From: a virus | Virus record (IMG/VR): IMGVR_UViG_3300035633_000103 | Span: 1 to 22,304 of that record | Reading direction: 5' to 3' (one strand) | DNA: 22,304 bases | In this document: positions 973 through 22,304 of the stretch, piece after piece | Layout of the letters: every line of letters begins with the position of its first letter | Position numbering within the stretch: position 1 is the first letter of the stretch | The notes under the pieces: generated by a model | What the model saw: the letters and a program-made list of their open reading frames with translations, nothing else | Database searches by the model: none | What the model was told of the DNA's origin: nothing | Translations under genes and position numbers: made by a program

Positions 973-3120
973 TCAAAACGTAATGCTGTTACCGCGAGTG
1001 GTCCCAAAGTCCATCGTTCTGTTAACGGGCTTTACGTCAATGCTATAGGTCGTGCCCGCGACGTATTCGCCGAGACCAAAATAGTCGGTTTCGGTTACGC
1101 TCTTCGCTTGCTCTTCAACCATAGAGCCGAGCCCCGCAAAGTTGCCCTCGTACTCGCAATACCCGGCAGGGCAAGATCCGCCAGTTTCCGTAATGCTCCA
1201 ACCGACAACGTAATTTGGTGTCGAGTCTACAATTGTCACCCTTAGCCCGAACGTCTCCGGGCTGTCCCCGTTGCTGATTTTTTCGAGCTTGACAAAATCC
1301 GGCGCTGGCGGCAAAGGATCTTCATATTGAACAAGAGCGTCGGCAGTAACGACCTTTGGCAAATCCGTCCACTCGCCAAAAGCGCCAGATTGCGCCACAA
1401 TTCTGGCTTGGAGTTTAAAGAGCGACTCAGTGTTCGGTTGGCCAGGCTGTCCTGGGCTTACGTATCGCTCAATGTAAGGATCAATTACGACAGTCGCGCT
1501 TGTCGCATCCCCCGGCTCGCGTTGTGTAAATAAAAGCGTGTCATCCGGCGAGTCAAACACATAGGTCCCCCATACACGAATTTCTATGGCCTCGGCCCAA
1601 AAATAATCCGGGTCGTCCCAGGTGATATCAATCGTGCCGACGATATCGCCCGCAGCGTTGCCCACTTCAATGTGGTTGCCTGTCCCGGAAAGCCCGGTAA
1701 TTTGCGGAGGGTTAAAGGGATCGTCGGTTGTGATGTTGAAATCTGGCACGCTAGTTTGATCGGAAACATCATCCGAAAAGGCGCTTGGCTGATATTCGCG
1801 CAGGACCAGATTAAACCAGTTCCATCCGCTAACGCTGATGCTGGTAATAATAAAAGGCTTGTTCGTGATGCCAATCAAAGGCTCGGTCACTTCCACGACT
1901 TCACCGCGAAGCAGCCTCAATCCTTGCCCGAATACTCGAATGCGAAGCACGGTGTCCGTGCGCTGATCTGGCGCATCTGTCGTGCCACCAAGCATGCGCA
2001 GACGCTCTATTGCTCTGCGCTTTGCCTCCTGATACGTGCCGACAAAAGGCATGGAAACCTTGCTAATCCGGCCGGTGATGTTGCCTTTTGCTTCTGCTTG
2101 GTTTGTTGCGTTGTTGTCGGGATCGTAAAAAGAAACGCGCACGTCATCGGGAATGTCGCGGTCTGGCAGCCGGTCGTATTGAATGGATCGCCTGTCGATG
2201 CGCTGCGGCAGGATGTCCGCAACAGAATTCCGTTGTTTGTTCGGAACGAAGAAGAAGGTGTCCCCGACTTCTGATACGTAGCACTGCGCGGCCTCTTCAA
2301 GATAAGCAATAATCGCGGCCATGTCGCTGGTGCTGGCACCAATCACCGCGCCTATTGTATGCCTGATATACGTCGTGTCTAGCGCGTCGTCGTTGTAATC
2401 GGCGCACTCAATAAGTGATGCCTCGTCTACCGTTTTGTTCGGCTTGTAATACGTAGTCAGAAAATGAGCCAGGCACAGCGACGGGTTGTTGCTGTAAGCG
2501 GTTGTCGGAGATTGGCGCGGATCATCTACGCGCAGCCCTTTAACAAGAGCCTCCACTCTGGGCGGCGAAGCGTCTAGCGGGAATTCCCAGAATCGACGCC
2601 AAAACGACACGACTACATATCCAGCCAGCGTGTCAGCATAGCTGGGCAGATAGGTGGACACAAAGCCGCTAACGTCTTGAGTGTCGTTCCCGACATAATA
2701 AACAATCTCCCCGCCGCCAACAATGCTTGACACACTAATTGGTGTCTCTGGCGCCAGCGATGAGCAGTCAAACTCGGTGCCGTCAATGTAAATTTTTTCG
2801 AATTCTTCAATCTCTCCTTGCGCAAAAAGATAGACGCAAAGATACGCGGAGCCTGAAATTTTTTGAAGCTGGACTAGCTGGCCCGAGACCCTGGTTCGCC
2901 CATAGACAATCGGAATCGGCGACTGAAAGCCCGCAACGGTTGCCTTGATTTGGTTAGGCGTTTGTCCGGCGACACTTTGCAAAATGCCGACAGGCGTCAC
3001 CGGCGTTGCCCACGTGACCTGGCCTCGATTGACCGGCCCGGGCTTGTACGGGTTGAAAGGGACAAGCGCCTGATTGCCAACGTTGATGGCGCTTCCAGGC
3101 TTGACGTTTGGGTCAGGCAT
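973..3120 (-). CDS. Tail tip / host specificity protein, gpJ-like
   Basis: Protein of 715 residues starting with MPDPNVKPGS. The frame stays open upstream to 3204, but that extension is Arg/Cys-rich and overlaps the preceding gene. The ATG at 3120 overlaps the preceding stop as TGATG, the usual junction in this operon, so it is preferred. The N-terminal part (QSPIPIVYGRTRVSG, then FAQGEIEEFEKIYIDG) and the middle part (VRVSFYDPDNN, then the segment ending LRIRVFGQGLRLLRGEVVEV) fit the tail-tip hub domains of gpJ-like proteins. The C-terminal ~280 residues look like fibronectin-III-type beta domains (TGLSGTGN, TIDITWDDPDYFW) that in the family reach toward the receptor. It is the last gene of the minus-strand operon, as J is in lambda. 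It is shorter than lambda J (about 1130 residues). Confidence 0.8.
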   Translation of the reverse strand: MPDPNVKPGSAINVGNQALVPFNPYKPGPVNRGQVTWATPVTPVGILQSVAGQTPNQIKATVAGFQSPIPIVYGRTRVSGQLVQLQKISGSAYLCVYLFAQGEIEEFEKIYIDGTEFDCSSLAPETPISVSSIVGGGEIVYYVGNDTQDVSGFVSTYLPSYADTLAGYVVVSFWRRFWEFPLDASPPRVEALVKGLRVDDPRQSPTTAYSNNPSLCLAHFLTTYYKPNKTVDEASLIECADYNDDALDTTYIRHTIGAVIGASTSDMAAIIAYLEEAAQCYVSEVGDTFFFVPNKQRNSVADILPQRIDRRSIQYDRLPDRDIPDDVRVSFYDPDNNATNQAEAKGNITGRISKVSMPFVGTYQEAKRRAIERLRMLGGTTDAPDQRTDTVLRIRVFGQGLRLLRGEVVEVTEPLIGITNKPFIITSISVSGWNWFNLVLREYQPSAFSDDVSDQTSVPDFNITTDDPFNPPQITGLSGTGNHIEVGNAAGDIVGTIDITWDDPDYFWAEAIEIRVWGTYVFDSPDDTLLFTQREPGDATSATVVIDPYIERYVSPGQPGQPNTESLFKLQARIVAQSGAFGEWTDLPKVVTADALVQYEDPLPPAPDFVKLEKISNGDSPETFGLRVTIVDSTPNYVVGWSITETGGSCPAGYCEYEGNFAGLGSMVEEQAKSVTETDYFGLGEYVAGTTYSIDVKPVNRTMDFGTTRGNSITF

Positions 3121-4322
3121 CAGGTGATCCCGTACTTGCTCTTGAGATAATCGTGCACATCGGCAAGCTCGGTATCGTTCAGGCGGCGGTCGTATACAAG
3201 CCACTCAAAAAGATATGAGCCGCTGTCGAGTGCCGCGCCTACCGAGTTGATTCTCCCGATAGTGGCAATGTTGGCGCTTTTGTAAAAAGTGCCCGCAGGC
3301 TGCGCAAACGAGTCTGCCAGAGTGCCGTCAAGATAAGACTCAAGCGTGCCGCCTGCGCCGCTGGTTCTGAGGGTCTGTAGTGTAATTGTATTAGTGGGCA
3401 CAGGCGTGGATGCTTGGGTGTAGGTCTGGTTCCCTGCTCCATCTACAGCGCCGCCGAGATAAGCAGTGGACTCTCCCCCGTGGAGAAGAGTATAGCCACC
3501 GTTTCCGTTAACGGCGCCAAAATCGGCAAACGTCGAAAACATCCACGCATAGTTACTGGTGACGTTGTGTCGATATACTACAAAAATTGTCACCTCGTCT
3601 TGAGTGTGCACAGTGCAAGTTCCGCCTGAATCATTGGCTTGGGCAATTACGCCACTCCCTGGGGGATCGAATTCAATTCCGGCAAAGCCGGTCCCGCCAG
3701 CATTGGATCGGTAAATTGCGCGGTTTGTCACCTGCCACTGTTCAGGGATTGTGCCGGAAGCAAGCGATTCATCAATCCAAAAAATTAAATCATTGTTCTT
3801 AATTGGATCTGTTTGCAACTCGTCATCCCACATGTCCGACTCGTCTGCCGCCACCCAGGACGCCAGGTTGGGCAAGTCGGTCGGCAAAAACCCGGGGGAA
3901 TCGCCCGGAGAGTCAAAGCCCGGAGAGTCAAAGCCCGGAGAGTCAATGGGCGTTGGGCTTTCTGCCGGATCTGGCGATTCTGGCGCATCCTCTGTCACAA
4001 ACTTCGCCAGCCTACAGGATACCCTATATTTGCCGGTGCCAGCCTCAAGCCGCCACTGCGGCGGCTGCTCCCAGAATACAACGTGCGCCGTGCCATCCTC
4101 TTGCCATGTAAACGATTGCGTCCCTGTCCTGTTTTGATCGAAGTTGACGAGCAGCTCTGAAAGCTGCGCCTGGTCTAAAAAATACTCAACAACAAAAGCG
4201 CCTTGATCTGCGTCAATGGCGGTTTGAGTATCTGGCGCACCAGAAGGTGCGCGCCCGATTTCCACGTCCTGGACGGGCTCAAAGCGCGATCCGTAAAGCT
4301 GGTCAAAAGACGGGAATGCCAT
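3120..4322 (-). CDS. Minor tail protein fused to a LamG/ConA-like lectin domain
   Basis: Protein of 400 residues in three parts. Residues 1-112 form a distal-tail domain (MAFPSFDQLYGSRFEP to YRVSCRLAKFV) that resembles the protein encoded just upstream. Residues about 113-145 are a low-complexity linker built on the unit DSPGF. Residues about 146-400 look like a jellyroll of the laminin-G/concanavalin-A type: it opens with LPNLASWVAADESD, has an FVVYR strand, and ends with the typical WLVYDRRLNDTELADVHDYL followed by KSKYGIT. In phages such domains bind glycans or decorate tail fibres. Lying between the distal tail gene and the tip gene, it is a plausible host-surface adhesin. The ATG at 4322 follows the upstream stop by 2 nt. 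The domain calls are from motif recognition; a specific ligand cannot be given. Confidence 0.75.
   Translation of the reverse strand: MAFPSFDQLYGSRFEPVQDVEIGRAPSGAPDTQTAIDADQGAFVVEYFLDQAQLSELLVNFDQNRTGTQSFTWQEDGTAHVVFWEQPPQWRLEAGTGKYRVSCRLAKFVTEDAPESPDPAESPTPIDSPGFDSPGFDSPGDSPGFLPTDLPNLASWVAADESDMWDDELQTDPIKNNDLIFWIDESLASGTIPEQWQVTNRAIYRSNAGGTGFAGIEFDPPGSGVIAQANDSGGTCTVHTQDEVTIFVVYRHNVTSNYAWMFSTFADFGAVNGNGGYTLLHGGESTAYLGGAVDGAGNQTYTQASTPVPTNTITLQTLRTSGAGGTLESYLDGTLADSFAQPAGTFYKSANIATIGRINSVGAALDSGSYLFEWLVYDRRLNDTELADVHDYLKSKYGIT
3904..3948 (-). repeat. 15-bp tandem repeat, three copies
   Basis: Three adjacent 15-bp units (plus strand cccggagagtcaaag; the third ends in atg) encode the pentapeptide DSPGF in the linker of the tail-lectin gene. 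A decayed copy lies just below 3904. The unit is a multiple of three, so copy-number changes would lengthen or shorten the linker without breaking the frame. Confidence 0.9.
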
Positions 4323-8615: not shown

Positions 8616-9004
8616 CAGCTAGCCGCCCTAGTAACGTCACCGTCAACAACAAAGTTATAAGTGTTGCGTACATAATCGCGCCCCGTCTGCACATCTACAC
8701 CGGAAACAATGCCGGTGAAGCTGATCGTCGGGCTGGCAGTATTAGTGCTGCCGCGCTGATACAAAACAAAAGACACGGACGCCCCTACAGTAAGCGCTCC
8801 TTGACCGCTGGTGTCTTCCGGGTCATAAAACACAGTAAACGAGCCAGAGCCAGAGCTGATGCCAACGTCCTGCGTAGCAGACGTATCGCCAAGGGCAATG
8901 CTGGTAAAAATCTCTGCCTGCTCGTTTAGAGTAATGCTCTCAACGCTCGAGATGGCGTTACCGCCCGCAGTAAGCGTGGCGTCTTTCCCGACAAAACGCG
9001 CCAT
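8615..9004 (-). CDS. Major tail (tube) protein, gpV-like
   Basis: Protein of 129 residues immediately upstream of the chaperone gene, where the tube protein lies in lambda-like phages. It is Ser/Thr/Gly-rich and beta-strand-rich (MARFVGKDATLTAGGNAISS; SGSFTVFYDPED; SVSFVLYQRGSTN; SFTGIVSGVDVQTG). That pattern is typical of tail tube proteins, which form stacked hexameric rings. It is about half the size of lambda gpV and lacks room for an added Ig-like domain, so it is probably the bare tube fold. The ATG overlaps the previous stop as TAATG, with GGAG upstream. Confidence 0.75.
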   Translation of the reverse strand: MARFVGKDATLTAGGNAISSVESITLNEQAEIFTSIALGDTSATQDVGISSGSGSFTVFYDPEDTSGQGALTVGASVSFVLYQRGSTNTASPTISFTGIVSGVDVQTGRDYVRNTYNFVVDGDVTRAAS

Positions 9005-9231
9005 TATTCCGACTCCTCTTCAGTATGTTTAAGTTCTACAGTCTCAACGTCCGCAGATGTTTTTACGGGCCTGCGCTTGCGGACAGATTGCTTTTTGCTT
9101 ACAGGCTCAAAAACCCATCCGTCAAGCAGCTTTTGCTCGACGTGACGCTCCAGAAACAACGTGGGCTCTTCGCCACCGTTAGGTGGAAAGAGCGCAACTT
9201 TCCCTTTTGGACACTCACTCTTGTCTAGCAT
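9004..9231 (-). CDS. Hypothetical small phage protein
   Basis: Protein of 75 residues between the tail terminator and tail tube genes. Family not recognised. The N-terminal half looks folded (KGKVALFPPNGGEEPTLF then VEQKLLDGWVFE). The C-terminal half is charged and probably disordered, changing from basic (RKRRPVK) to acidic (HTEEESE). The start is supported by GAGG 5 nt before the ATG and by close packing with both neighbours. A small tail or connector role is possible from position only. Confidence 0.6.
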   Translation of the reverse strand: MLDKSECPKGKVALFPPNGGEEPTLFLERHVEQKLLDGWVFEPVSKKQSVRKRRPVKTSADVETVELKHTEEESE

Positions 9232-9238
9232 TTCAACC

Positions 9239-9643
9239 TCACGTCAAGTAACGCACAGTGTAGACCACATCACAACGAAGCATTTTCTTTTTTCCCTGAT
9301 CCCGCTGCGGCTCGCTGACTTCCGTTGGATAAGAATCCGTCGCCAAGCCGGAAAGGGCCGGATCGGCAGCCAAAGCGTCCAGCGCAGACCAGACAGTGTT
9401 AAAAACAGTCACGTCGACGTCTCCAACGTCCGACGCATAAACATGCAAACCAAACTCTTGTTCATGCGCAAGCGTTCGCTCTAGATCGTCTTGGTCAATG
9501 TTGTCGGATCCTACCGTAACAACAACCGCAGGCAGGTCCGCATCTTCAAGCGCATAATGGCGCGAAGAAAAAACGCTATAGCTCGTGCTGGCAATGGCCG
9601 CCGCTATTTGATCCCGAATTTGAATTGCTTTGCAATCAGCCAT
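9239..9643 (-). CDS. Tail terminator protein, gpU-like
   Basis: Protein of 134 residues matching the pattern of lambda gpU: an N-terminal helix (IQIRDQIAAAIAS), FSSRHYALEDADLPAVVVTV, a central beta strand (EFGLHVYASDVG), a helix (WSALDALAADPAL) and a final strand (RCDVVYTVRYLT). In lambda this protein caps the finished tail as a hexameric ring and forms the tail side of the head-tail joint. The start overlaps the preceding connector's stop by 8 bp. It lies directly after the gpFII-like gene; the gpZ-like gene that sits between these two in lambda is absent here and found at 21022-21615. Confidence 0.75.
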   Translation of the reverse strand: MADCKAIQIRDQIAAAIASTSYSVFSSRHYALEDADLPAVVVTVGSDNIDQDDLERTLAHEQEFGLHVYASDVGDVDVTVFNTVWSALDALAADPALSGLATDSYPTEVSEPQRDQGKKKMLRCDVVYTVRYLT

Positions 9644-9923
9644 TTAACACCAGCAAGCTAAAGCCGTTACCATCCGGCTGCGTTTCTACAACAGTGTAAC
9701 TAATCGCTTCGACAATCAACTCTTTCCCTACAGGATCAATTGCATCCTCGGCTTTTAGCCAAAAACGCGGTAGCGACGTAGAGACTCCCGGCTCGTTATC
9801 AAAAGCCTCAAAATACGAATCGTAAAAAACGCCGGTCACCGGGACGCCATCAAGCGTCGCGTCTACAGCAAAATCGTCTGTATTCAAAAAGCTGTCCAAG
9901 TTGTCCCACGCTGGCGTTGTCAT
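9636..9923 (-). CDS. Head-tail connector, gpFII-like
   Basis: Protein of 95 residues. It opens TTPAWDNLDSFLNTDDFAVD and has a VTGVFYDSYFEAFDNEPGV segment, then a RFWLKAEDAIDPVGKELIVE block and a final strand GFSLLVLNG. This order of elements (D-N-L start, GVF-x2-x segment, then the short beta block with an xG-x-xL turn) resembles lambda gpFII, which attaches to the portal ring and receives the tail. The start overlaps the upstream stop as ATGA. Position between capsid and tail terminator supports the call. Confidence 0.72.
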   Translation of the reverse strand: MTTPAWDNLDSFLNTDDFAVDATLDGVPVTGVFYDSYFEAFDNEPGVSTSLPRFWLKAEDAIDPVGKELIVEAISYTVVETQPDGNGFSLLVLNG

Positions 9924-10204
9924 GAGTTTGCCTCAATCCTGCACTCGACGCTGCAATACTTTTGCGCCGCGCTTTTGCGGTCGTAACGAGTGCCGCATTG
10001 AACACACTCCGGTCGCGTATCAAGGTCTTCTAGTTCTTTCTTGATTTCTTCCGCTTTTCCGATGTTTTTCAAATACTTAGCCAGTGCAGACGACACTGTC
10101 AGAACGTCACCGACTTTGGCGCGGCGACCGTTGACATACGTCTCCCGCGAGATCCTTACTCGCTCTTCGCCAGCTCGCCCTCTGAATGCATCTGATTTAA
10201 GCAT
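9920..10204 (-). CDS. Small capsid-adjacent protein with C-terminal zinc ribbon
   Basis: Protein of 94 residues in two parts. Residues about 14-55 (RVRISRETYVNGRRAKVGDV through LAKYLKNIGKAEEI) match a small fold seen in phage proteins encoded next to the major capsid gene, where lambda FI lies. Residues about 66-91 carry CVQC, then 13 residues, then CSVEC: a C-x2-C-x13-C-x3-C arrangement of the zinc-ribbon kind, ending QKYCSVECR. A zinc finger on this protein is unusual. It could bind DNA or RNA or simply stabilise the tail of the protein. A strong hairpin lies just upstream of its ATG. Confidence 0.6.
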   Translation of the reverse strand: MLKSDAFRGRAGEERVRISRETYVNGRRAKVGDVLTVSSALAKYLKNIGKAEEIKKELEDLDTRPECVQCGTRYDRKSAAQKYCSVECRIEANS

Positions 10205-10219
10205 CGTCTCAGTAAGGCA

Positions 10220-10241
10220 GGGCGGGCCAAAAGGCCCGCCC
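10220..10241 (-). terminator. Hairpin between capsid and connector genes
   Basis: A perfect 9-bp GC stem (GGGCGGGCC / GGCCCGCCC) with a 4-nt loop lies in the 53-bp gap after the capsid stop, 16 bp before the next ATG. On the minus-strand transcript the loop is UUUU, and no U-tract follows. It is therefore more likely a partial attenuator or an mRNA 3'-end stabiliser, giving more capsid than connector protein, than a full intrinsic terminator. Confidence 0.6.
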
Positions 10242-10257
10242 GCCTTTGCCTCCTACT

Positions 10258-11601
10258 TTACGGAGTAGAGCCGCTGTTACCGCGAACGAAGCTAACTGCA
10301 TGACGCACAGCCATGTCCGCAGTCTGGAAGGTCACGTAGCGAACCCGGCCACGCAGCGAGTGCGTGTACGGGTCAACGTTGACCTCCAGGCCGCCCCAGA
10401 AGCCGACCAGAAGGTCGGCCCAATTGCCAAAGAACCAGTCGCCGCTGTCGCATTGGTTAGAAACAAAAGCCCGCCGCCCGACAACCGGCGCGTTCGGGGC
10501 CGTTTCGTTCCAAATGAATTGCGCGGTGTTGGTAGCCTTTTCGGTCGTCATGGCTGCGTCCCACCCGGTGGGGTCAGTCACGAAAGCCGTGGCGCCCATG
10601 TCGGCATTGTCAAGCTTGCATTCAGTCACCATCTGGACGACTTCAGCATAAGTGGGCTGACTCGATCCAAACGTCACCGAATTGATGCCGGACGTTGCCG
10701 CAATACCCGCAGGCACGCCAGAAGCGCCAGACGATCCATAAAGGCCAGTCTCATCAAGCGCGATTCGCATACCTTGCGACAGGTCATCCCGGATCAGAGC
10801 TTCGATGCTCGGCGTGGACTGCTGAATAAGCCGCCGGCTGACCTCGGTGTAAGTCGCCAGGTCATGCGGCGACATCGTAACCTGATCAAACTGGGGCTCA
10901 GTACCTGCGGCCTCCGCGTCCTCGGTGGCAAGCCACGCTCCGCTGGAAGCAGAAGTCTTGCGCGGGATTTCGACATTGCCGACAAGGCCCGTGATGAAGC
11001 GAGCGCCAGCCTGCGCGATGACCGTCGTGTTGCGCAACACATCAATAAAGCTGCCCGCCAGGAGATCATCAGAGACAAGCTCTGCCCCGTCCGTCGCGGT
11101 GCCGGCGGTCAGCGTCCGCGATGCAAGCGCCACCTCCGACGGAATAAAAATGCCTCTGGGCTCGATGCCCAGCCGCTTGGCAGCAGCGTCCGAAACCTCG
11201 AACTCAAAGGCCGCATCTTCAATCGCCCGCTTCGCGTTGGCAGGATCGGTCGCCTGTTGGGCAAGCGCCCGCATAATGCGCAGCATGGAATACTGGCGCT
11301 TCTCCTTTTCCGGAATATCCAGCTTGTCATCCACCGGATTTTCGGAGCGGATCTTATTGTTCCGCCGCCCGATTTCCGCCAGGACTTCGCGCTGGAATTC
11401 ATGGACCGGCTTGCCATCGTCAATGAACGAACGCGCAATGTCAGCCATGCCGTGCTCATCGGCAACGCGCAGGATTTCGTTGACGCGCTCACGCTCAGCT
11501 TTTGCGCTCATTTCTCGCTCGGCCTTGACATTGACGGCCGGAGCTTGCGGCGCGGCTTGTTCCCGGTTTTCCGTCTTGGGAGACGTTTTTGCGTCAGACA
11601 T
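10258..11601 (-). CDS. Major capsid protein from internal in-frame start
   Basis: Proposed nested product of 447 residues beginning MSDAKTSPKTEN, in the same frame as the protease fusion. It is supported by a full AGGAGG 8 nt before the ATG, stronger than the site for the fusion itself. It would carry the helical delta domain (to about residue 290 of the fusion) plus the HK97 fold, without the protease. HK97-type capsids need hundreds of shell subunits but few proteases, so internal initiation would give the right ratio. Both the start and its strength are seen in sequence. Its use in the cell is inference. Confidence 0.7.
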   Translation of the reverse strand: MSDAKTSPKTENREQAAPQAPAVNVKAEREMSAKAERERVNEILRVADEHGMADIARSFIDDGKPVHEFQREVLAEIGRRNNKIRSENPVDDKLDIPEKEKRQYSMLRIMRALAQQATDPANAKRAIEDAAFEFEVSDAAAKRLGIEPRGIFIPSEVALASRTLTAGTATDGAELVSDDLLAGSFIDVLRNTTVIAQAGARFITGLVGNVEIPRKTSASSGAWLATEDAEAAGTEPQFDQVTMSPHDLATYTEVSRRLIQQSTPSIEALIRDDLSQGMRIALDETGLYGSSGASGVPAGIAATSGINSVTFGSSQPTYAEVVQMVTECKLDNADMGATAFVTDPTGWDAAMTTEKATNTAQFIWNETAPNAPVVGRRAFVSNQCDSGDWFFGNWADLLVGFWGGLEVNVDPYTHSLRGRVRYVTFQTADMAVRHAVSFVRGNSGSTP

Positions 11602-14141: not shown

Positions 14142-16013
14142 TTAACGCCAACTGGTGGCAAACGTGCCTTTTCTAATGCGTGCCCGTTGTTTTTTATGCT
14201 GTTTCAAAAGTGCCTTTTCTTTGACATCTGAATTCTGTTTTCTTTCCTTTTGTTTTTTATCGTTTTTTATGGCGGCCCAAACGGGATTCAAAATATACAG
14301 CGCGGCGTGAGCATAAACTCGACAATCAAGAGCTTCGTTTCTGCTGCGCACCTTTTGCCACACGTGACGCTTGAATCCGCGCACATATTTAATCTCCCTG
14401 CGCTCGGCTGTCAATTGCGCGTAATACTCGCCATCTAAACCAGTCGGAAAATGCACGTAATTCGGTCCGGGTTTTTCGGTTGAAAGCGCGCCGTAAGTCT
14501 GAGACTTGAGCGCATCTACTCCGACCTGAAACATCCGGGGCGGCTTTGGCCCCGGCGCTTTCGGCTTGTTCATTACAGAAACAGCAGGCTTGTTTTCGCC
14601 TTCCACGCCTTTTACGGCATAGAATCTTCGCCCGTACCGTTGAGCGCAGTAGCGGTAAACCTGATTCGACAAATAGCCGCTATCAATAGCAGCCGCAGTA
14701 ATGGGCAATGTGGAACCGCAGGGCTTCTTGTAAACTTTTGAGCTGAGCCAGTGATCAAGGCGCATCCACTCGTCTGGCAAAGACGGATCTGCGTTAATTA
14801 CTGCGTGCTCAATAAGCCAGGATTCGTTTGTCTCGTTCCACCCCCAAACAGAAATCTCAAATCGGTCCGATTGCACGTCAACGCCAGCCGTCAACAGCGC
14901 AACTTGCCCCGGCGCTTCCGCTTGATAGAGCTCAGCCCGCGCCGCCAGCCCTTCCGGGTCTAGATCTTCGCCTTCGTTTTTCCACGTCTCTCCGAGCGTG
15001 GTGTTGACCCACGTTTTAAGCTGCTCGCGGTTTCCCTTGACGCGCTCATAAGCCCGGAAGACGTCTGACCACGACGACCATGGAGAGTAAAACTCATTAA
15101 TGTGAAAACCGGCAATGTCTACAAACGGCGCTGTAGCTTTCCACTCGCCAGCCGCCACCATGCCGGCCTTGTCAGACTCGGTAGCCATGCCGCCGCAGCT
15201 CGGGCAGATCCACACCGGCTGCTCTACGGTGCCAGCATGGCTCCAATCAAAATGCTTGAACTCGAAGTGATGCGTTTCGCCACAATGCGGGCAAGGGACG
15301 TGAAAGCGCCGCTGGTCAGACTTTGAAAACTCGTTGTCAATGCGGCTTAAGCCCTCGATTGTAGGCGTGCTGCCCAGCAGGATTTTGCGATTCCAGAAGG
15401 TGCGTGTTCTCTTGACGCCCAAAGAAACCGGATCGCCTTCCGTTCCTGCTGACGCTGGAAACCTGTCTACCTCGTCAAACAACGCAATTCTGATCGGCCT
15501 GGACGCCAAGCCAGCGGCGCTGTTGGCGCCAGCAATAGTCAAGTGACCGCCGGCGAAACGCTTGTGCAGCAAGGTGTTGTCGCCGACTTTAGACTTTGCT
15601 TCCGCAACCTTGCCCCGCAAAGCAGGCGTGTCGCGCAGCATCGGCGCGATGCGATCTTTGGAGAAGGCCTGGCCCATTTCAAGCGTAGGCTGCACGCACA
15701 AGATAGGCGCGGGGTCTTGGTGTACGTAGTAGCCGATGGTGTTAAGGAGAATTTCAGTCCACCCTACTTGAGCGGACTTTTTAAGAACGATAGTGGCCAC
15801 ACGCGCATCTGAAAGCGCGTCCATTATTCCGCGCTGGTAGGGCGCGCGATCTGTCATCCACTGCCCAGGCTCCGCGCTGGATTCCGACGAAAGCTTGCGA
15901 TATCTGTCTGCCCAATCAGACAGCGTAAGATCCGGTGGCGGCATCCATAGCCGCTTTGCCAGCTGGCGCGTCCGCTCAAAGTTTTCGGGATATTTCAGAG
16001 ATCGCTTCATCAT
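14142..16013 (-). CDS. Terminase large subunit, lambda gpA family
   Basis: Protein of 623 residues, close to lambda A (641). It is the packaging motor: an N-terminal ATPase that translocates DNA and a C-terminal nuclease that cuts concatemers. The Walker A-like motif is VLKKSAQVGWTE at 76-87, equivalent to the variant lambda motif, and Walker B is ALFDEVDRFP with D180/E181. A zinc-binding pair of CxxC motifs follows (CPHCGETHHF and WICPSCGG, about 240-275). The nuclease region includes LTAGVDVQSDRFEISVWGW and AAIDSGYLSNQVYRYC, whose Asp residues are likely metal ligands. The C-terminal tail is very basic (KNDKKQKERKQN). It overlaps the small subunit gene by 38 bp. A gpA-type terminase would be consistent with cos-end packaging, but no cos site was identified. 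Confidence 0.95.
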   Translation of the reverse strand: MMKRSLKYPENFERTRQLAKRLWMPPPDLTLSDWADRYRKLSSESSAEPGQWMTDRAPYQRGIMDALSDARVATIVLKKSAQVGWTEILLNTIGYYVHQDPAPILCVQPTLEMGQAFSKDRIAPMLRDTPALRGKVAEAKSKVGDNTLLHKRFAGGHLTIAGANSAAGLASRPIRIALFDEVDRFPASAGTEGDPVSLGVKRTRTFWNRKILLGSTPTIEGLSRIDNEFSKSDQRRFHVPCPHCGETHHFEFKHFDWSHAGTVEQPVWICPSCGGMATESDKAGMVAAGEWKATAPFVDIAGFHINEFYSPWSSWSDVFRAYERVKGNREQLKTWVNTTLGETWKNEGEDLDPEGLAARAELYQAEAPGQVALLTAGVDVQSDRFEISVWGWNETNESWLIEHAVINADPSLPDEWMRLDHWLSSKVYKKPCGSTLPITAAAIDSGYLSNQVYRYCAQRYGRRFYAVKGVEGENKPAVSVMNKPKAPGPKPPRMFQVGVDALKSQTYGALSTEKPGPNYVHFPTGLDGEYYAQLTAERREIKYVRGFKRHVWQKVRSRNEALDCRVYAHAALYILNPVWAAIKNDKKQKERKQNSDVKEKALLKQHKKQRARIRKGTFATSWR

Positions 16014-16434
16014 GAATCTTTTTCAAATAATCCGCGACCTCTGCTTCTCCAAGGGAAGGCGCAAGTATCGGCGCAAGTTTGCTCCTGGCAGATCCAAGCT
16101 TTGCCTTTGCAGCAACAATCATACTCGAAATAAAGCGGTCAACGTCATCCCGCCTCAGCAGCTCGCCTTCCTGCTCCTTTCTGTTAAGCTCGGCAAGTTT
16201 TCGTTGCTCGGCAGTCAGCTTTGCTTTCTCTGCGGTAAAGTCTGGAATCGATCCATCGTCACCAATGCCTAAAGACTCCCGCTCACGCGCCCTGATCCAC
16301 TCTCCTACTTCCTCGCATAAGTAGCCCTTGTTGTGCTGCGGAAAAGCGTCGTCTTCCTGGCTAATCTGCCGTAGTCTGCGCGGGCTGACGCCAACCAGTG
16401 CGGCAAACTGTGGCTGGGTAATCTTGCTAGACAT
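15976..16434 (-). CDS. Terminase small subunit, Nu1-like
   Basis: Protein of 152 residues encoded immediately before the large subunit. The N-terminal ~50 residues form a winged helix-turn-helix (TQPQFAALVGVSPRRLRQIS, then the GYL...VGEWIRARE strand and helix) that would bind the packaging start site. The central part has the family signature KLTAEQRKLAELNRKEQEGE followed by LLRRDDVDRFIS. The C-terminal helices probably contact the large subunit. The ATG has only a poor ribosome binding site. It is the first gene after the one real gap in the operon, so it may have its own promoter. Confidence 0.9.
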   Translation of the reverse strand: MSSKITQPQFAALVGVSPRRLRQISQEDDAFPQHNKGYLCEEVGEWIRARERESLGIGDDGSIPDFTAEKAKLTAEQRKLAELNRKEQEGELLRRDDVDRFISSMIVAAKAKLGSARSKLAPILAPSLGEAEVADYLKKIHDEAISEISRKL

Positions 16435-16545: not shown

Positions 16546-16839
16546 TCAGTTCCAAAAAAGAGCGCCGCCATTTCTTTTCGTTGAGCCGCCGGAGCCGTCC
16601 GGCTTATCATCTTTGCAATTTTCCTCATAGATTGTTTCGTTGAAAATTGCATAACCATTCCCGACGTATTTGTAAACGTACGCTGATTCTACCTCGTTTT
16701 CGGTCACCGCCCCCTCCCCATGCTCAACCCATTTCGAGATAATCGCAATCCACGGCGCCTCAATAAGTTCCTGTTCTGATTCGACATCGTGATCCAGAAC
16801 GCAATCATCAAGCGGGCCGCCGAAAAGCTCAATGTCCAT
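16546..16839 (-). CDS. Hypothetical small acidic protein with GGPLDD motif
   Basis: Protein of 97 residues starting MDIELFGGPLDDCVLDHDVE. The frame is open further upstream, but that part is Gly/Cys-rich and lies over the glycosyltransferase gene, so the ATG at 16839, overlapping the upstream stop by 11 bp, is preferred. The opening ELxGGPLDG-like motif followed later by an aromatic strand (YVYKYVGNGYAIF) recurs in small proteins of unknown function in phages and bacteria. The C-terminus is Gly/Ser/Lys-rich and probably disordered. It closes the accessory cassette. Whether it is part of the modification pathway is unknown. Confidence 0.6.
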   Translation of the reverse strand: MDIELFGGPLDDCVLDHDVESEQELIEAPWIAIISKWVEHGEGAVTENEVESAYVYKYVGNGYAIFNETIYEENCKDDKPDGSGGSTKRNGGALFWN

Positions 16840-17557
16840 ACGGCGCGCTGGCCTGTCGCATTTCGATCCGCTCACGCATCCAGATGCCATCATGAGTGCC
16901 TCCGCCCCACCCCCGGAGCCATGGCCCCCCCAGGGTGAAATGGCAAATTGCGCCCCCCCCGGGAGGCTCTTCCTGCACGCCAACTAACCAGTTCCACCTT
17001 GCGTTAATCTCTCCAATTTCCGAATCCTGAAGCCAATCAAACGCATGCAGCCGCCGGCCAGGCCAGCGGTTGATATGATCAAGCCTAAGCCTGCGATTGC
17101 TGGCATGGTCGCAGTTGAACGCCATCACGCTTGACCAGTTTTTCCTTGAATAGCGCGTCTGGATTAGACCGCACATCTTCGTTTGCTCTTCTGCCTGGTG
17201 CTCATGCTTGACGCAATACACCGCTTTGTCGGGATCAGTCGGCAGCATGTTGTGCAGGTTTTCTTTCACAACAACATCGCAATCCATGAAAATTGCCATG
17301 CCGCTCTGGTGAAGTAGTGGGACGAGAAACCTGCTGATCGCGAACTCGGTGGACATTGGGGCATCACTCAAGACATCCCAAAGCTGCCCGTTTGTCCTGT
17401 ACATCGGGCGATTGAGAAGCCCGCACATTGTGAGCCAGTCATGGCGCAATGGGACAACGCGAACGTTCGGCGTCGTCTTGCGTATTGTGTATTCCGCGAC
17501 CTTGTAGGCCTCTACCTCGATCGGATCAAAGCCCATATAGACGGTTAGTGTTTCCAT
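16829..17557 (-). CDS. Glycosyltransferase, GT-A fold (GT8-like)
   Basis: Protein of 242 residues starting METLTVYMGFDPIEVEAY. Two features mark a GT-A nucleotide-sugar transferase: the metal-binding DxD motif in IFMDCDVVV (D92-C-D94) and a C-terminal HFTLGGPW, analogous to the metal-binding His and xxPW of GT8 enzymes. The segment RFLVPLLHQSG before the DxD is also typical. The frame is open 12 codons upstream, but the ATG at 17557 has GGTGG 5 nt before it and overlaps the methyltransferase stop by 13 bp. Donor sugar and acceptor are unknown. The 3' end of the gene contains a G8 run (16953-16960) and a G7 run (16925-16931) that could slip. The conserved HFTLGGPW between them indicates the zero frame is correct up to that point. 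Confidence 0.75.
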   Translation of the reverse strand: METLTVYMGFDPIEVEAYKVAEYTIRKTTPNVRVVPLRHDWLTMCGLLNRPMYRTNGQLWDVLSDAPMSTEFAISRFLVPLLHQSGMAIFMDCDVVVKENLHNMLPTDPDKAVYCVKHEHQAEEQTKMCGLIQTRYSRKNWSSVMAFNCDHASNRRLRLDHINRWPGRRLHAFDWLQDSEIGEINARWNWLVGVQEEPPGGGAICHFTLGGPWLRGWGGGTHDGIWMRERIEMRQASAPYGH

Positions 17558-18090
17558 GCTTCCACCCGGAAATCCCGGCGCACCTTTCCGCATCGATGAA
17601 AAACTGTTTGCTTTTCTTTCAGCTTTCCAAATCCATTAGACAAAAGCAAAGGCTTTATTGTGGCAAACGTCCAGCCCCACTTGTGCATCATGAAAGGGTC
17701 GCGGTGCCTGGGGTCACCGTAAATTCCCCAATACGAAACATTATCAGGCGACGATGCGACAAGATTGCGCGCGCATTTCACAATGTCCGGCATCTCAAGG
17801 GCCAGCTTGCCTCCGGGCATTAAAAGCCTGTGCCAGTCGGCGAGAAGTCTTTCGCATTCCCACGGGAAGAAATGCTCGAACACATGCACCGCCAAAACCT
17901 CGCTAGCGCATTTATCGTCTAGCGGAATCGGCGATTTTGTAAAGTCGCAAACAATATCAGGCTCTGCGCCACTCCGAGAAACCACGTCGATGTTGACATA
18001 ACCGTTTAAGCGCTTTCTGCCGCATCCGACATTGAGGCGCAGCGGTCGGTTATGAATTCCCAGAACTCCCTCGCCTCGCTTGGTTTCCAT
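17545..18090 (-). CDS. SAM-dependent methyltransferase (type 11-like)
   Basis: Protein of 181 residues with a class I methyltransferase fold. Motif I, LRLNVGCGRKRLNGYVNIDV, starts about residue 17 and binds the methionine part of SAM. The acidic end of strand 2 is IDV. Motif IV-like AVHVFEHFFPWE and the LLMPGGKLALEMPD segment after it are characteristic of small-molecule or sugar methyltransferases. No DNA-methylase motif such as NPPY or a target recognition domain is seen. It lies among glycosyltransferase genes, so O-methylation of a sugar is the most likely job (inference). Start choice is uncertain: two GTG codons at 18099 and 18096 precede this ATG, and all overlap the upstream gene by more than 80 bp. 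Confidence 0.8.
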   Translation of the reverse strand: METKRGEGVLGIHNRPLRLNVGCGRKRLNGYVNIDVVSRSGAEPDIVCDFTKSPIPLDDKCASEVLAVHVFEHFFPWECERLLADWHRLLMPGGKLALEMPDIVKCARNLVASSPDNVSYWGIYGDPRHRDPFMMHKWGWTFATIKPLLLSNGFGKLKEKQTVFHRCGKVRRDFRVEAWKH

Positions 18091-18800
18091 TGCCACCACG
18101 CTAACCTTTTTAGAAAGTCTACCCGATCCTCGACGCTGGCGGGTGCGTTATCCCAGCTATTTGAATAAAGGAACGACGCAGCGCCGCTTTCTGTCGAGAC
18201 AGGAATCCCCTGAATAATCGCGTCAACGCCCACGTTACTATGCCTTGTTATGACAAGTGCCGCACCCTTCAGTGCCTGCTGAACGCGTCGGTGATTATCG
18301 GTTGCATAATTTGCAACACCCGGATTTCCAGGCTTTGGGCGATACACAAGCCTGTCGCCAAATCGAGCCGATGCCGCCTTAAGCGTGTCGCGCTCCCAAT
18401 GAGAGTTAATGTGAGGCTCGGCTTTTGACTTGCGGCCCATGCCGACAACGATCACGCGGCCTGTTGAACAGTAATCGTTGCTGATTGCCGGGATTTGTCG
18501 TCCTGGCCCAAAGTCTGGAAGGTCGGTTTGGTGGCGTGAGTTGATCGCGCATCGGATCGGGTAATCGCTACCTGCCCTGCCCCAATAGCCCAAGTCCAAG
18601 TGCACCCACCTGCCAGGGTATTTTTCTATCGCTCGCCTTTGCTCGACGCCGCCGCCCCCGTAAACAATCAGCCAATCAGATCGCCCAATGACTCGCTCAG
18701 TGACAACGTGCCGATGGGGGCAAGCGTCAATTGCGGCCCTTATAAATCGCTTGCCTTTCGCGGACCATTTTGTCCTAGGCCAAAAAATTTCAAAATGCAT
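18006..18800 (-). CDS. GT-B-like putative glycosyltransferase (capsule synthesis-like), paralog 1
   Basis: Protein of 264 residues. An N-terminal Rossmann half (MHFEIFWPRTKWSAKGKRFI; DWLIVYGGGGVEQR) leads to a C-terminal half with LVYRPKPGNPG and then the block VQQALKGAALVITRHSNVGV with DAIIQGIPVSTES. That block resembles the nucleotide-sugar binding segment of KpsS/KpsC and related enzymes, where a Ser/His-x-x-x-x-E/D-A helix follows the beta strand. It ends with FLKRLAWWQWKPSEA. The protein at 19594-20337 shares the same C-terminal layout, so the two are diverged paralogs. AAGG lies 8 nt before the ATG. It overlaps the upstream gene by 61 bp. Donor and acceptor are unknown. Confidence 0.65.
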   Translation of the reverse strand: MHFEIFWPRTKWSAKGKRFIRAAIDACPHRHVVTERVIGRSDWLIVYGGGGVEQRRAIEKYPGRWVHLDLGYWGRAGSDYPIRCAINSRHQTDLPDFGPGRQIPAISNDYCSTGRVIVVGMGRKSKAEPHINSHWERDTLKAASARFGDRLVYRPKPGNPGVANYATDNHRRVQQALKGAALVITRHSNVGVDAIIQGIPVSTESGAASFLYSNSWDNAPASVEDRVDFLKRLAWWQWKPSEAREFWEFITDRCASMSDAAESA

Positions 18801-19606
18801 TGCCGATACCTTGCCGCAATGTCTTTCAATAATGGCGTCCCGGCTCGAAGCACCATGGCGCGGATTTTCCTTTCTTCATAACTCTTGAGCGCATCAATCG
18901 CGTCCTCGAACTCTTGCCGGTTTCTATAATAGACAGGCCCCACGGGATCACACTCAAGGTACCCTGACTCATAAGGCATCACGCACGGCGTGCCGGTCGC
19001 CTGCGCATTCGCCAGCTTTACGTTAGACTTCCATGCGCGTGACACCTCGTCATCATAAGGATCTGCGCGACAAGCTATAACAGCGTCCAATTCCGCAAGA
19101 TTTGCCGGGTTCATGACAAACCGGAGCCCGTTTCGCCTGACAGAATTTGTCACCCAATTTGGCACGTATCGCTTGCTGCCTTGATAGCCGACGGTCTTCA
19201 GCTTTTCCCTGATGGGATTTCTCGGTTGATTTTCCATTGCATGATGGCGCAATACAAATCCGTCGAGATCGCGCAAGGATGTTTGCTGCGCTTGTGTTGA
19301 AAACACGCAAGCCGACGCACTCATGCCTTTAGCCTGCGCGTATACGTAAGATTTGGCCTGCTCCAGGGTAAAACCTTTTCCTTGCGGCCAGCAGTCCACA
19401 ATGTCCCACAAAACCGGCTTGCCAGACTGCTTGATGGCTTTATTAATCTGCGCCGTTGTGCGCTTGACAACCACCACAACGTCTGCCGCGTCCATGTCTT
19501 TGACAGTAGCGTTTGGCTTCACAATCGCGCCGATTGCCTCGCCAAGTTGAACGCCTCGAATTTGCCAACTTCCAGATCCGCCCCTGCCTGTAATCAAGAT
19601 TTGCAT
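18740..19606 (-). CDS. GT-B-like putative glycosyltransferase (GT4-like)
   Basis: Protein of 288 residues. The first strand and loop are MQILITGRGGSGSWQIRGVQ, followed by ADVVVVVKRT and LWDIVDCWPQG, as in the acceptor half of GT-B enzymes. The C-terminal half has a DAVIACRADPYDDEVSRAWK segment followed by SNVKLANAQATGTPCVMPYE. The last part matches the K-x-x-x-A-x-A-x-G-x-P donor-binding pattern of GT4 enzymes, although the usual E-x7-E is not obvious. It may therefore be a divergent or even inactive member. The ATG overlaps the upstream stop by 13 bp. It lies between the two paralogous transferases. Confidence 0.6.
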   Translation of the reverse strand: MQILITGRGGSGSWQIRGVQLGEAIGAIVKPNATVKDMDAADVVVVVKRTTAQINKAIKQSGKPVLWDIVDCWPQGKGFTLEQAKSYVYAQAKGMSASACVFSTQAQQTSLRDLDGFVLRHHAMENQPRNPIREKLKTVGYQGSKRYVPNWVTNSVRRNGLRFVMNPANLAELDAVIACRADPYDDEVSRAWKSNVKLANAQATGTPCVMPYESGYLECDPVGPVYYRNRQEFEDAIDALKSYEERKIRAMVLRAGTPLLKDIAARYRQCILKFFGLGQNGPRKASDL

Positions 19607-20337
19607 AAGTATTTAAACGGCGTCCCTTGCTCAATTTCCGACGCCTCCCATTGCGCCCACGCAATGCGCCTCAAAAAGGCTCTCCGACATCCTTTGTAAG
19701 GCTTCTCATTCCATTTTATCTGAGCAGCCGGTGCGCCGATCCAGCTCATTAGCGCATGGTAAGCGGGGATGCCGTCGCAGATTGCTTTTAGGGCGGCGGA
19801 GCTGGCCCACGTCACCACCGCATAAGCAGAAGCAAGATCCTCCTCAAGCGGCACGGCGTCTTTGTTGGTGCCAGGATGTGCGCGGACACGCACCGGGCGG
19901 CGGTGGATGCGCTTAAGTTTGCTTAGCGCCAAGTTTAGCCATCGGTGCGGTTGCGTGACGCCTGGCTCGCCAATGCCGCGCTGCGCCAAAATGACGATTT
20001 CTTCGCCACCCTTTCGCCACGGCTTTAGGCTAACGCCTTTGATGTCCCTGTCGCCGCCGACGTGCCAGTCCCCAGCGCCGCAGTGGTGATTGCGGGCGAT
20101 AGCATAATAGCCATCCCCCAAATAGCCGTTTTCAACCACCAACACATCAGCACCCGCAGACTCGAACCGCGTCGCCTCCCGGTTATAATTGCCATAGCGG
20201 TTCCAAATTACAAGGCAATCGCCAGGCGCGGGATTTGCTATGCGCTTTTCCAGCGTAAACCCATGCGCCCTGAGTCCCGACTCAAACGCATGCCGCCGGT
20301 AATGCGGCTGCGGGCGAATCATGCATTGGGCTTTCAT
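19594..20337 (-). CDS. GT-B-like putative glycosyltransferase (capsule synthesis-like), paralog 2
   Basis: Protein of 247 residues starting MKAQCMIRPQPHYRRHAFES. A GTG two codons earlier is possible, but the ATG overlaps the upstream stop as ATGA with GGTGG-like sequence before it. The sequence contains DCLVIWNRYG, VLVVENGYLGDG, VRAHPGTNKDAVPLEEDLAS and AYAVVTWASSAALKAICDGI. The last matches the donor-binding block of KpsS-type transferases. It ends RRAFLRRIAWAQWEASEIEQ, a tail shared with the gene at 18006-18800. It is probably a sugar transferase acting on a glycan or a virion protein. Substrate is unknown. Confidence 0.65.
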   Translation of the reverse strand: MKAQCMIRPQPHYRRHAFESGLRAHGFTLEKRIANPAPGDCLVIWNRYGNYNREATRFESAGADVLVVENGYLGDGYYAIARNHHCGAGDWHVGGDRDIKGVSLKPWRKGGEEIVILAQRGIGEPGVTQPHRWLNLALSKLKRIHRRPVRVRAHPGTNKDAVPLEEDLASAYAVVTWASSAALKAICDGIPAYHALMSWIGAPAAQIKWNEKPYKGCRRAFLRRIAWAQWEASEIEQGTPFKYLCKS

Positions 20338-21068
20338 GCCCACCTACCCAAAAACTCTTGAATGCTCATGCGCGGGAAACACTTAAGCGCGGTTTCCCTG
20401 GAGCAATTCACAATGTGGCACCGGCCCTTTGCGTCGTCTGCCAAATTGCGGAACGCCTGAATCCACCGTCCAAAATTCCCAGCCTGTGGAACGCCAGCGG
20501 CTAGCGTGCCTACATGGTCGCCATGCCAATGGGAGCGACCGAATGTGCGCTGCATGTCGAATCCGAGCAAGCCGATGGTTTGCGCGCCGAAAAGCACATG
20601 TACCAGGTTAATGGCAGCGTGCCCGCTGTTTCGCCCGTTGATGATGGGCAGCGCCTCCGCAAGCCCGCCAGAGCCGCGCCGTGCGTGGACGTTGCGGCCC
20701 TGGATATGCGTTATATCTCCCATCTCCCGCAACGTCTTGCAGTCTGCCTGGCTGAATTTTTCCCCTTCAAAGTGCAGTGTGCGCTTGTGATAGGTGCGCC
20801 ACCATTGGTGGTCGGCTGCATATAGCGCGTGCGCCCACGGCGCAAGTTCGTGAGCGTTATTGACGACGCAGACATAAGCGCGCCCTTTGCATGCCTCGAC
20901 GTCTTGAAGCGTCAGGCTTGGCCCGCCGGCAATGACAACCCACGGTCTTTCGGTCCTGCAGGTTTTCATGCGCCGCTTGTTCTTGGCGGCACACTGCTGC
21001 TTCCAGCGTTCCGTTTCAGACTTAGCGTAGACCGGACGCGATGGCCCCGAATCGGCGAATTGCGGCAT
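20334..21068 (-). CDS. MptE/GT42-like Rossmann protein
   Basis: Protein of 244 residues. After a basic N-terminal ~40 residues it shows WVVIAGGPSLTLQDVE (GGPSL at 48-52), the strand YVCVVNNAHELAPW with ALYAADHQWWRTY, then NSGHAAINLVHVLFGAQTIG leading to LLGFDM (169-172) and a polar loop rich in His and Asp (SHWHGDH). This order of motifs is shared by DUF115/MptE-like pyrophosphokinases and GT42 sialyltransferases: GxGPSL near the start, then SG-x-x-A, then GxD. Either a sugar transferase or a nucleotide-type transferase is possible. The gene opens the accessory cassette. A strong AGGAGG 10 nt before the ATG supports the start, which overlaps the gpZ-like gene by 47 bp. Confidence 0.6.
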   Translation of the reverse strand: MPQFADSGPSRPVYAKSETERWKQQCAAKNKRRMKTCRTERPWVVIAGGPSLTLQDVEACKGRAYVCVVNNAHELAPWAHALYAADHQWWRTYHKRTLHFEGEKFSQADCKTLREMGDITHIQGRNVHARRGSGGLAEALPIINGRNSGHAAINLVHVLFGAQTIGLLGFDMQRTFGRSHWHGDHVGTLAAGVPQAGNFGRWIQAFRNLADDAKGRCHIVNCSRETALKCFPRMSIQEFLGRWA

Positions 21069-21615
21069 TGCTTTGCGCCCTCCTTCTGCGGGCCAGCTTT
21101 CTTAGCTCAACATTTATGCGCCGCTTAAATTCTATAGGATATCTTTCGGCAATTGTCTTCGGCACTACGTCACGCCCGACCGTAACCACTTCTTGCTTAA
21201 TGGGGAACGTCGGGACTTCGACTGGCAACCGGCTCTTGCCTTCCCGTTGGAAAACAGGCTTTCGTTTAATCTTTGGGATAAACGCTTTTGGCAGGTGCCT
21301 GCCTCCATAAAAGCTGACGCCGCCGCGCTTCAATTCCCGCGGTCGCAGCCGCGTTCCCCTGACTGGGAGCGTTCCGACCTGAAGCACCCTAGAATTGCCG
21401 ACTTTGCGATTGTGGCTGCCGTGTTTTGCCAAGACTTTCCTTGGGACTCTGGCCGCTTTTGCAGCATTCCGCAGCCACCTTGAAAAGGCAGTCGCGGCTG
21501 ACCTGTACTCGGCTGTCTTGTGCGCCTCTGGGATAAACTGACGCGCGGTCCGGCTCAAGTCTTCCTTGACGGCGGCAAGCGCGGCATCAACGTTTGATGT
21601 GATATCAAGAGCCAT
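21022..21615 (-). CDS. Minor tail protein Z-like (gpZ family)
   Basis: Protein of 197 residues, very basic, matching lambda gpZ (192 residues) along its length: VGNSRVLQVGTLPVRGTRLR, GGVSFYGGRHLPKAFIPKIK, then PVFQREGKSRLPVEVPTFPI, and a C-terminal helix with basic charges (RRINVELRKLARRR). In lambda, gpZ is needed for tails to work in DNA delivery. In lambda it lies between FII and U; here those two genes are adjacent, and this gene is found about 12 kb upstream, between the lysis genes and the accessory cassette. The ATG overlaps the upstream stop by 11 bp. Confidence 0.72.
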   Translation of the reverse strand: MALDITSNVDAALAAVKEDLSRTARQFIPEAHKTAEYRSAATAFSRWLRNAAKAARVPRKVLAKHGSHNRKVGNSRVLQVGTLPVRGTRLRPRELKRGGVSFYGGRHLPKAFIPKIKRKPVFQREGKSRLPVEVPTFPIKQEVVTVGRDVVPKTIAERYPIEFKRRINVELRKLARRRRAQSNAAIRRFGAIASGLR

Positions 21616-21892
21616 CGTCTTTTAGTGTCGCGTCAATCGAGTTCACCCTGTTTTCAATGCGGTCCAGCTGGCGCTCAATTCGCTGTTCAACACGATCAAT
21701 TCTGGCGTTACGTTGCTTTTCAAGGCTTGAAGATTGATAAAGATAGGCGTCAAAACCGGTCTCAAGACTTGAGATTCTCCCCTCCATTCCAGAGCCCCAA
21801 ACAAAAAGACCACCTGCGATGGTGATTGTGCTTAGCATGTGCCCAATGCTGATGTGTTTGTCAAGCTTCCATTCGCTTTTGCCGTCATTCAT
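21605..21892 (-). CDS. Membrane-anchored coiled-coil protein, lysis-associated
   Basis: Protein of 95 residues starting MNDGKSEWKLDKHISIGHML. One hydrophobic segment at about 15-33 (IGHMLSTITIAGGLFVWGSG) is followed by a long charged helix with heptad character (RNARIDRVEQRIERQLDRIE). Single-span proteins of this kind with a coiled coil are common beside phage holin genes. A spanin-like or holin-modulating role is possible, but no lipobox partner is visible. GGGGG lies 5 nt before this ATG, which is preferred to an in-frame ATG four codons upstream. Both overlap the holin stop. Confidence 0.6.
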   Translation of the reverse strand: MNDGKSEWKLDKHISIGHMLSTITIAGGLFVWGSGMEGRISSLETGFDAYLYQSSSLEKQRNARIDRVEQRIERQLDRIENRVNSIDATLKDDGS

Positions 21893-22304
21893 TGTGGCCC
21901 CCATTGGGTTTCCCGGTTAGCGCCTTTTCTGCGGCTTTTGCCTTTACAATCGGCTCTCGAAAATCCTTCCAAAGACGGACGCCTAGAGCAGATCCGATAA
22001 CCGCCAAAAGAACCATTTGATACCAAAAAGGCGTATTTGAAACGTATTCAAACCCGAGAGAGACGTAGTCCTGTGTCCATGGGAGAAAAACGCCCACAAA
22101 AGGCAGAGTAAAAAGAATTGTGATGTACTCGTCTTTCCAGCCTGAATTGCTAATGCTCATCAGCTCCCAGGCTTGCAGGTGCTCCTGAGCGCTGATCCGC
22201 AGATTCATGCGGGCCTCGATTTCTTTCAGTCGGGCCTCATGCTTTTTTAGCTTGACCTCATGACGGCGCTGAAAAATGCCGTCAATGCCTTCAATTATTG
22301 GCCC
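21885..22304 (-). CDS. Holin, three-transmembrane type (partial)
   Basis: The 5' end lies outside the window: the frame is open to base 22304 and reads GPIIEGIDGIFQRRHEVKLK before a Met at 22208, so the Met is internal. The visible 139 residues include a charged helix (HEARLKEIEARM), the NSGWKDEY motif, then two hydrophobic spans (ITILFTLPFVGVFLPW and FWYQMVLLAVIGSALGVRLW). The whole order fits the GTA/phage holin family with three membrane segments (helix-WKDEY-TM-TM). Holins form the lesion that lets endolysin reach the wall. The endolysin gene would be expected just beyond the window edge. Confidence 0.72.
   Translation of the reverse strand, partial: GPIIEGIDGIFQRRHEVKLKKHEARLKEIEARMNLRISAQEHLQAWELMSISNSGWKDEYITILFTLPFVGVFLPWTQDYVSLGFEYVSNTPFWYQMVLLAVIGSALGVRLWKDFREPIVKAKAAEKALTGKPNGGHNE

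Follow-up and report, generated by a model that had tools for sequence, protein, structure and literature searches.

The 22,304-base virus record IMGVR_UViG_3300035633_000103, which has no end repeats and is hereafter, at its full length, called the window, carries among its head and tail genes a cassette of six open reading frames (ORFs), g1 to g6, whose products, with conserved motifs, are five glycosyltransferase-like enzymes and a methyltransferase. All six families occur together in 37 other loci, and we are inclined, with slightly better than even confidence, to regard the cassette as a transferable late cytoplasmic machine that would build a methylated glycan on a virion protein. A first-pass annotation made from the sequence letters had already pointed out six consecutive overlapping genes in this place and had proposed a late function in glycan modification, an interpretation that overall is partly supported by the present analysis. 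Each of the six does overlap its neighbour, and all are found on the minus strand between positions 16829 and 21068:

20334-21068, minus strand: g1, GT42/MptE-like transferase, 244 amino acids
19594-20343, minus strand: g2, KpsC/WbbB-superfamily transferase related to g4, 249 amino acids
18740-19606, minus strand: g3, GT4-type GT-B glycosyltransferase, 288 amino acids
18006-18800, minus strand: g4, GT-B transferase resembling retaining 3-deoxy-D-manno-octulosonic acid (Kdo) transferases, 264 amino acids
17545-18099, minus strand: g5, S-adenosylmethionine-dependent methyltransferase, 184 amino acids
16829-17593, minus strand: g6, GT-A (GT8-like) glycosyltransferase with a DxD motif, 254 amino acids

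We found no description of the six-gene cassette in the open literature, and what is new here is the presence of the six-family set in 37 other loci; the broader kind of system, phage-encoded glycan modification, is already known.

Recurrence of the cassette

Profile scans of IMG/VR with g4, g2 and g6 gathered more than 120 loci, here designated by L numbers, and for the g6 family by itself there were at least 585 matching stretches. Such profile scans were needed because single-protein scans found next to nothing, namely no relatives of g6 and one of g4, and a tblastn search with g4 against named phages likewise gave no match. The 37 loci with all six families, which we estimate to represent roughly 30 distinct contigs, mostly have the genes on a single strand and arranged as g1-g2-g3-g4-g5-g6, the variants being g1 at the 3' end (L036-L042, L045) and an exchange of g4 and g5 (L067, L071, L078). 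Since this order recurs in dozens of phages, the six-gene set is far beyond what chance would produce, and the conserved order also lends support to the earlier proposal of a late, co-expressed cassette that builds and O-methylates a glycan. Furthermore, the pairwise distances of the six genes are intercorrelated (Mantel r 0.41-0.78, permutation p ~0.001). The unit is also carried by proteobacterial genomes, such as a 32-kb Variovorax contig (L142).

Two of the loci should be mentioned for their contents. In L067 (4548-7845) a type IV CRISPR module (Csf2, Csf1, Csf3) and a gene resembling CysH/3'-phosphoadenosine 5'-phosphosulfate reductase are found inside the cassette, between g2 and g3. In Tetraselmis viridis virus S20 (L006), the region from the head to the head-closure genes contains g1 homologues as well as several other glycosyltransferase or methyltransferase genes; the genome is that of a tailed phage with a green alga as recorded host, and the host assignment looks doubtful.

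Identity of the encoded enzymes

The enzyme classes named in the first-pass annotation, i.e. an MptE/GT42-like protein, three GT-B-like transferases, a methyltransferase and a GT-A transferase with DxD, are supported by family and structure searches. The g1 protein matches PHROG 4603 'alpha-2,3-sialyltransferase' (3.6e-43), the MptE-like family of Pfam is matched by 23 of 29 members of the g1 family (best 2.2e-7), and the seven top matches of the g1 profile in the PDB are all to the GT42 enzyme CstII, though these are weak (best E 0.0076). The g1 family resembles CstII and MptE/Maf-type proteins weakly in its profile and in the GPSL / GFDM motif pattern; the conserved H180 and H185 of g1 show no visible alignment with His188 of CstII.

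The sequence profiles of g2, g3 and g4 matched nothing meaningful in the PDB, and structure comparison was therefore used. The AlphaFold model of g3 is confident (predicted local distance difference test, pLDDT, 93), and a Foldseek search of the PDB with it gave BshA as the best match (E 6e-10, template modelling (TM) score ~0.66), followed by HepE, Gtf3, PglA and WaaG, with 206 matches at E <= 0.001, in agreement with a GT4-like GT-B fold. The equally confident model of g4 (pLDDT 91) is nearest to the retaining Kdo transferases WbbB (GT99), KrkA and KpsC (GT107) (E 1.5e-6, TM ~0.5, Foldseek probability 1.0), and the top 25 of its 30 matches at E <= 0.001 are all Kdo transferases, so that a shared fold is indicated, although g4 is smaller than these enzymes and only 10-14% identical to them; among viral proteins, those nearest to it in structure are capsule-type enzymes from Tetraselmis virus 1. 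The structure prediction that had been suggested as a check on the earlier reading, carried out on g3 and g4, thus returned GT-B-type folds, and g2 joins them by belonging to the same superfamily as g4, being 36-53% identical to 26 phage relatives and having a conserved R-x-H-P motif.

The g5 protein matches Methyltransf_11 above the Pfam cut-off (1.2e-5) as well as PHROG 6636 (7.9e-6), and its motif residues are conserved in 26 relatives. For g6, the match to PHROG 28018 is strong (1.7e-45) and that to Pfam GT8 falls just under the cut-off (7.8e-4, score 19.5 against 24.3), while the DxD residues D104 and D106 are invariant in 27 sequences. None of the six proteins has a strongly hydrophobic segment, the peak 19-residue hydropathy being at most 1.56, and nothing therefore points to membrane or flippase components; in addition, g1-g6 gave no match to the flippase or bactoprenol glycosyltransferase families of Gtr-type O-antigen seroconversion. 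A function of the cassette as a defence system was likewise considered and rejected, as PADLOC found no match between g1-g6 and known anti-phage defence systems.

Graded versions in PAJU2, D3 and P1

Smaller versions of the cassette are found in other phages. In its simplest form it consists of g1 alone, either in the slot between the head-closure gene Hc1 and Neck1 (L211) or beside that slot (L188), whereas medium slots, as in L165 and its relatives and in PAJU2, hold g1, a further gene that is 62% identical to D3 orf12/PAJU2 ORF011, and a methyltransferase. In D3 the same medium-version genes are divided over two sites. PAJU2 (ORF010-012) and D3 (orf7 and orf12-13) are like the window in having a g1 homologue in the head-tail operon, and they share an orthologous follow-on gene and methyltransferase, but their slots differ from that of the window in being without g2-g4, the g5 type of methyltransferase and g6. 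The g1 homologue of PAJU2 was labelled 'structural protein' by its submitters, a label the basis of which could not be checked; a collagen-family protein, ORF007, is encoded adjacent to it.

Phage P1 has a g1 homologue in pmgO (29% identity, 4e-20 to the window), a weaker one in pmgP (1.4e-13) and an annotated glycosyltransferase in pmgQ, all three downstream of an annotated late promoter. No g2-g6 homologues were recognised in the P1 region (L243, P1 74652-85185), and the pmg genes are, unlike the cassette, not beside Neck1. All of pmgO, pmgP and pmgQ are nonessential (PMC10695390), which fits an accessory modification; pmgO goes unmentioned in the P1 structure paper. The fact that g1 is present in nearly all versions and is the sole component of some makes it the obvious enzyme to propose for the initiating step.

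Genomic position and timing

Among relatives, the gene following the cassette is Neck1/gp10 in 13 of 22 cases and the gene preceding it is Hc1 in 10 of 23. In the window, the cassette instead comes after a gpZ-like gene, whose PHROG family is titled 'tail completion or Neck1', and before the terminase genes. A place next to terminase, where the first-pass annotation had suggested looking for the gene set in other phages, is peculiar to this phage; elsewhere the set does recur, but usually with head-closure and Neck1 genes on its two sides. The window backbone resembles that of CRP-822-type roseophages, and CRP-811 has the same order from terminase to tail (terminase large subunit, TerL, ~48% identical) with no annotated cassette gene. 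In L224 (TerL 46%) 100 bases, and no other gene, separate the end of a gpZ-like gene, recognised by inspection, from the small terminase gene; this is an empty counterpart of the window arrangement and therefore suggests that the cassette was inserted into, or transferred to, the lineage of the window phage.

The cassette of the window is probably expressed late, judging by its position; internal promoters and terminators in the operon are not above shuffled expectation. In a group of amber-recoded relatives (L029-L031, L043, L190) all 116 of 116 in-frame stops in homologous segments are TAG, in cassette and structural genes alike, at a similar density in the two (0.95% in the cassette and 0.72% in the structural genes for major capsid protein (MCP), tape measure protein (TMP) and Neck1), and the consensus residue at these positions is most often Q or E. 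The cassette of these phages is accordingly intact, full length and recoded like late genes.

A linked collagen-like gene

Most relatives encode, two to three genes upstream of g1, a collagen-like protein of 210-560 amino acids with G-X-Y repeats and a conserved C-terminal domain. Where enough upstream sequence is available, this gene was seen with 17 of the 21 full cassettes, whereas one of the 46 loci that lack g3 has it (Fisher p 3e-11, uncorrected for phylogeny). When loci were conversely selected on the collagen-like protein, 43 of the 48 with more than 5 kb downstream, some of them near-identical contigs, had at least g1 in the slot from Hc1 to Neck1 (21 full and 22 partial cassettes) and 5 carried none. 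The link, though strong, has exceptions: the window, L071 and L027 are without the gene. A strongly collagenous protein with 37 G-X-Y triplets is also encoded by a phage without any cassette gene (L222, 9689-10573), and the collagen-like protein does therefore not require the cassette.

Certain cassettes also contain optional genes: 15 loci have a 2-oxoglutarate (2OG)-Fe(II) oxygenase and 19 have an additional methyltransferase (duplicates included). The oxygenase (L045, 9928-10524, and 14 other loci) is found between g4 and g5 and has weak NCBIfam similarity to FlmC-type oxygenases.

Proposed function and alternatives

In the function that we favour, g1 would put a first sugar, possibly an acidic one from a cytidine monophosphate (CMP) donor, directly onto a head-neck virion protein, g2, g3, g4 and g6 would attach further residues and g5 would methylate one of them, an order of action that we infer. 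The product would be a short methylated glycan of the particle, made from host sugar nucleotides just before assembly, and it might alter adsorption, stability or recognition of the particle while not being needed for assembly. A virion acceptor is favoured because the place among head-tail genes is conserved on different backbones, because a collagen-like virion gene is linked to the cassette in relatives, because the enzymes are soluble with no membrane enzymes among them, and because the P1 homologues are dispensable. Several phage glycosyltransferases have similarly been proposed to assemble a glycan on the particle proteins of mycobacteriophages, virion glycosylation being described for Che8, Corndog and Myrna (Freeman 2023). 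This parallel, which was drawn in the first-pass annotation, holds as a functional analogy only, since Che8 gp108-110 match none of the six family models, and the mycobacteriophage genes are furthermore located near the right genome end, whereas the window cassette is inside the head-tail genes and includes a methyltransferase.

Several observations nonetheless weigh against this function. The virion acceptor and the sugars are putative, and the C-termini of the MCPs of cassette phages are not Ser/Thr-rich, so that there is no sign of capsid tails like those of mycobacteriophages and such a C-terminus is unsupported as acceptor. A collagen-like acceptor was sought in the window and neither it nor a 2OG-Fe(II) oxygenase was found, and the best candidate acceptor of the relatives is therefore inapplicable here; the strength of the collagen association is in any case to be read with shared ancestry in mind. 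The cassette distances also correlate with those of the backbone genes Neck1 and TMP (r 0.40-0.85, permutation p ~0.001), and the unit is therefore mostly inherited with its structural module. Finally, the GT-B folds of g3 and g4 are also those of lipopolysaccharide (LPS) and capsule enzymes.

This last point leads to the notion that the target is a surface glycan of the host, be it LPS core, O-antigen or a capsule precursor, on which the enzymes would act late in infection from the cytoplasmic side, whereby superinfection or re-adsorption of progeny to debris would be blocked. We consider this less likely than a virion acceptor but a serious alternative. It is in agreement with the resemblance of g3 to WaaG and of g4 to KpsC/WbbB, with the fact that all named bacterial hosts found are Gram-negative, and with the occurrence of divergent g6-like and g3 genes together in Burkholderiales chromosomes (L140 around 8845-10948, L141, L143), in surroundings that resemble an envelope-lipid gene region; by inspection, the neighbours in L140 would encode an ABC exporter, an acyltransferase and CDP-alcohol/CDP-glycerol-type transferases. 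A host glycan has also been argued as the target of the GT8 genes of pelagimyophages (PMC7029224). However, membrane, flippase or polyprenol-linked components are not seen in g1-g6, and a site inside the head-tail genes that is conserved across different backbones is in poor agreement with such a function. It should also be mentioned that D3 presumably has a separate locus for O-antigen conversion, which we count against a host target. The phage genes might also have been acquired from a host neighbourhood like that of L140 in Burkholderiales.

A more specific version of virion glycosylation is that the cassette of most relatives is a counterpart of collagen maturation, in which the oxygenase would hydroxylate the G-X-Y head-neck protein and a methylated oligosaccharide started by g1 would then be added, the window cassette having moved to another virion acceptor; this we regard as doubtful. 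That g1 and some of its partners have become structural or assembly factors without enzyme activity would agree with the 'structural protein' label of the PAJU2 g1 homologue and with that of putative morphogenetic genes given to the P1 pmg genes, but is improbable in view of the conservation of the predicted motif residues and the dispensability of pmgO, pmgP and pmgQ (PMC10695390). Least probable is that the enzymes add sugars to modified bases in the phage DNA, since, although viral glycosyltransferases that hypermodify DNA are known (Pyle 2024, as cited in PMC12619734), the cassette sits in a late structural operon and the thymidylate-synthase-type hydroxymethylase PF00303 was found in 0 of 18 cassette-phage contigs, several of them fragments, with controls detected.

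Few phages are documented to have glycosylated particles, and a conserved cassette within head-tail genes, with relatives in the cultured phages PAJU2, D3 and P1, suggests that modification of glycans late in infection may be widespread in phages with Gram-negative hosts. The question is testable in laboratory phages and bears on adsorption, particle stability and recognition, and likely functions can now be proposed for several genes annotated as 'hypothetical' or 'putative morphogenetic'.

Neighbouring genes in the window

Nearly all genes of the window form one minus-strand run, from gpZ-like tail completion through terminase, portal and capsid to tail. The cassette and a small ORF are flanked in this run by the following genes:

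21022-21615, minus strand: gpZ/Neck1-like tail completion gene, immediate 5' neighbour of the cassette (PF06763 1.6e-8, PHROG 27 1.6e-13)
16546-16839, minus strand: small 'GGPLDD' ORF, 97 amino acids, lineage-specific
15976-16434, minus strand: terminase small subunit, 3' neighbour (PHROG 57 9.4e-21)
14142-16013, minus strand: terminase large subunit (PHROG 15 2.5e-248)

The GGPLDD protein had initially been counted with the cassette, but it gave no match in family searches and has no homologue in any of 131 loci, and it is rejected as a cassette member. The designation of upstream genes as lysis genes could not be confirmed either: for 21885-22208 the only match is to a PHROG without an assigned function, and a Pfam search with 21605-21904 found nothing at E 0.01. 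A tail-region protein (3120-4322) has a weak concanavalin A-like/laminin G match (0.0019, below cut-off) and is probably the 'tail lectin' of the first-pass annotation.

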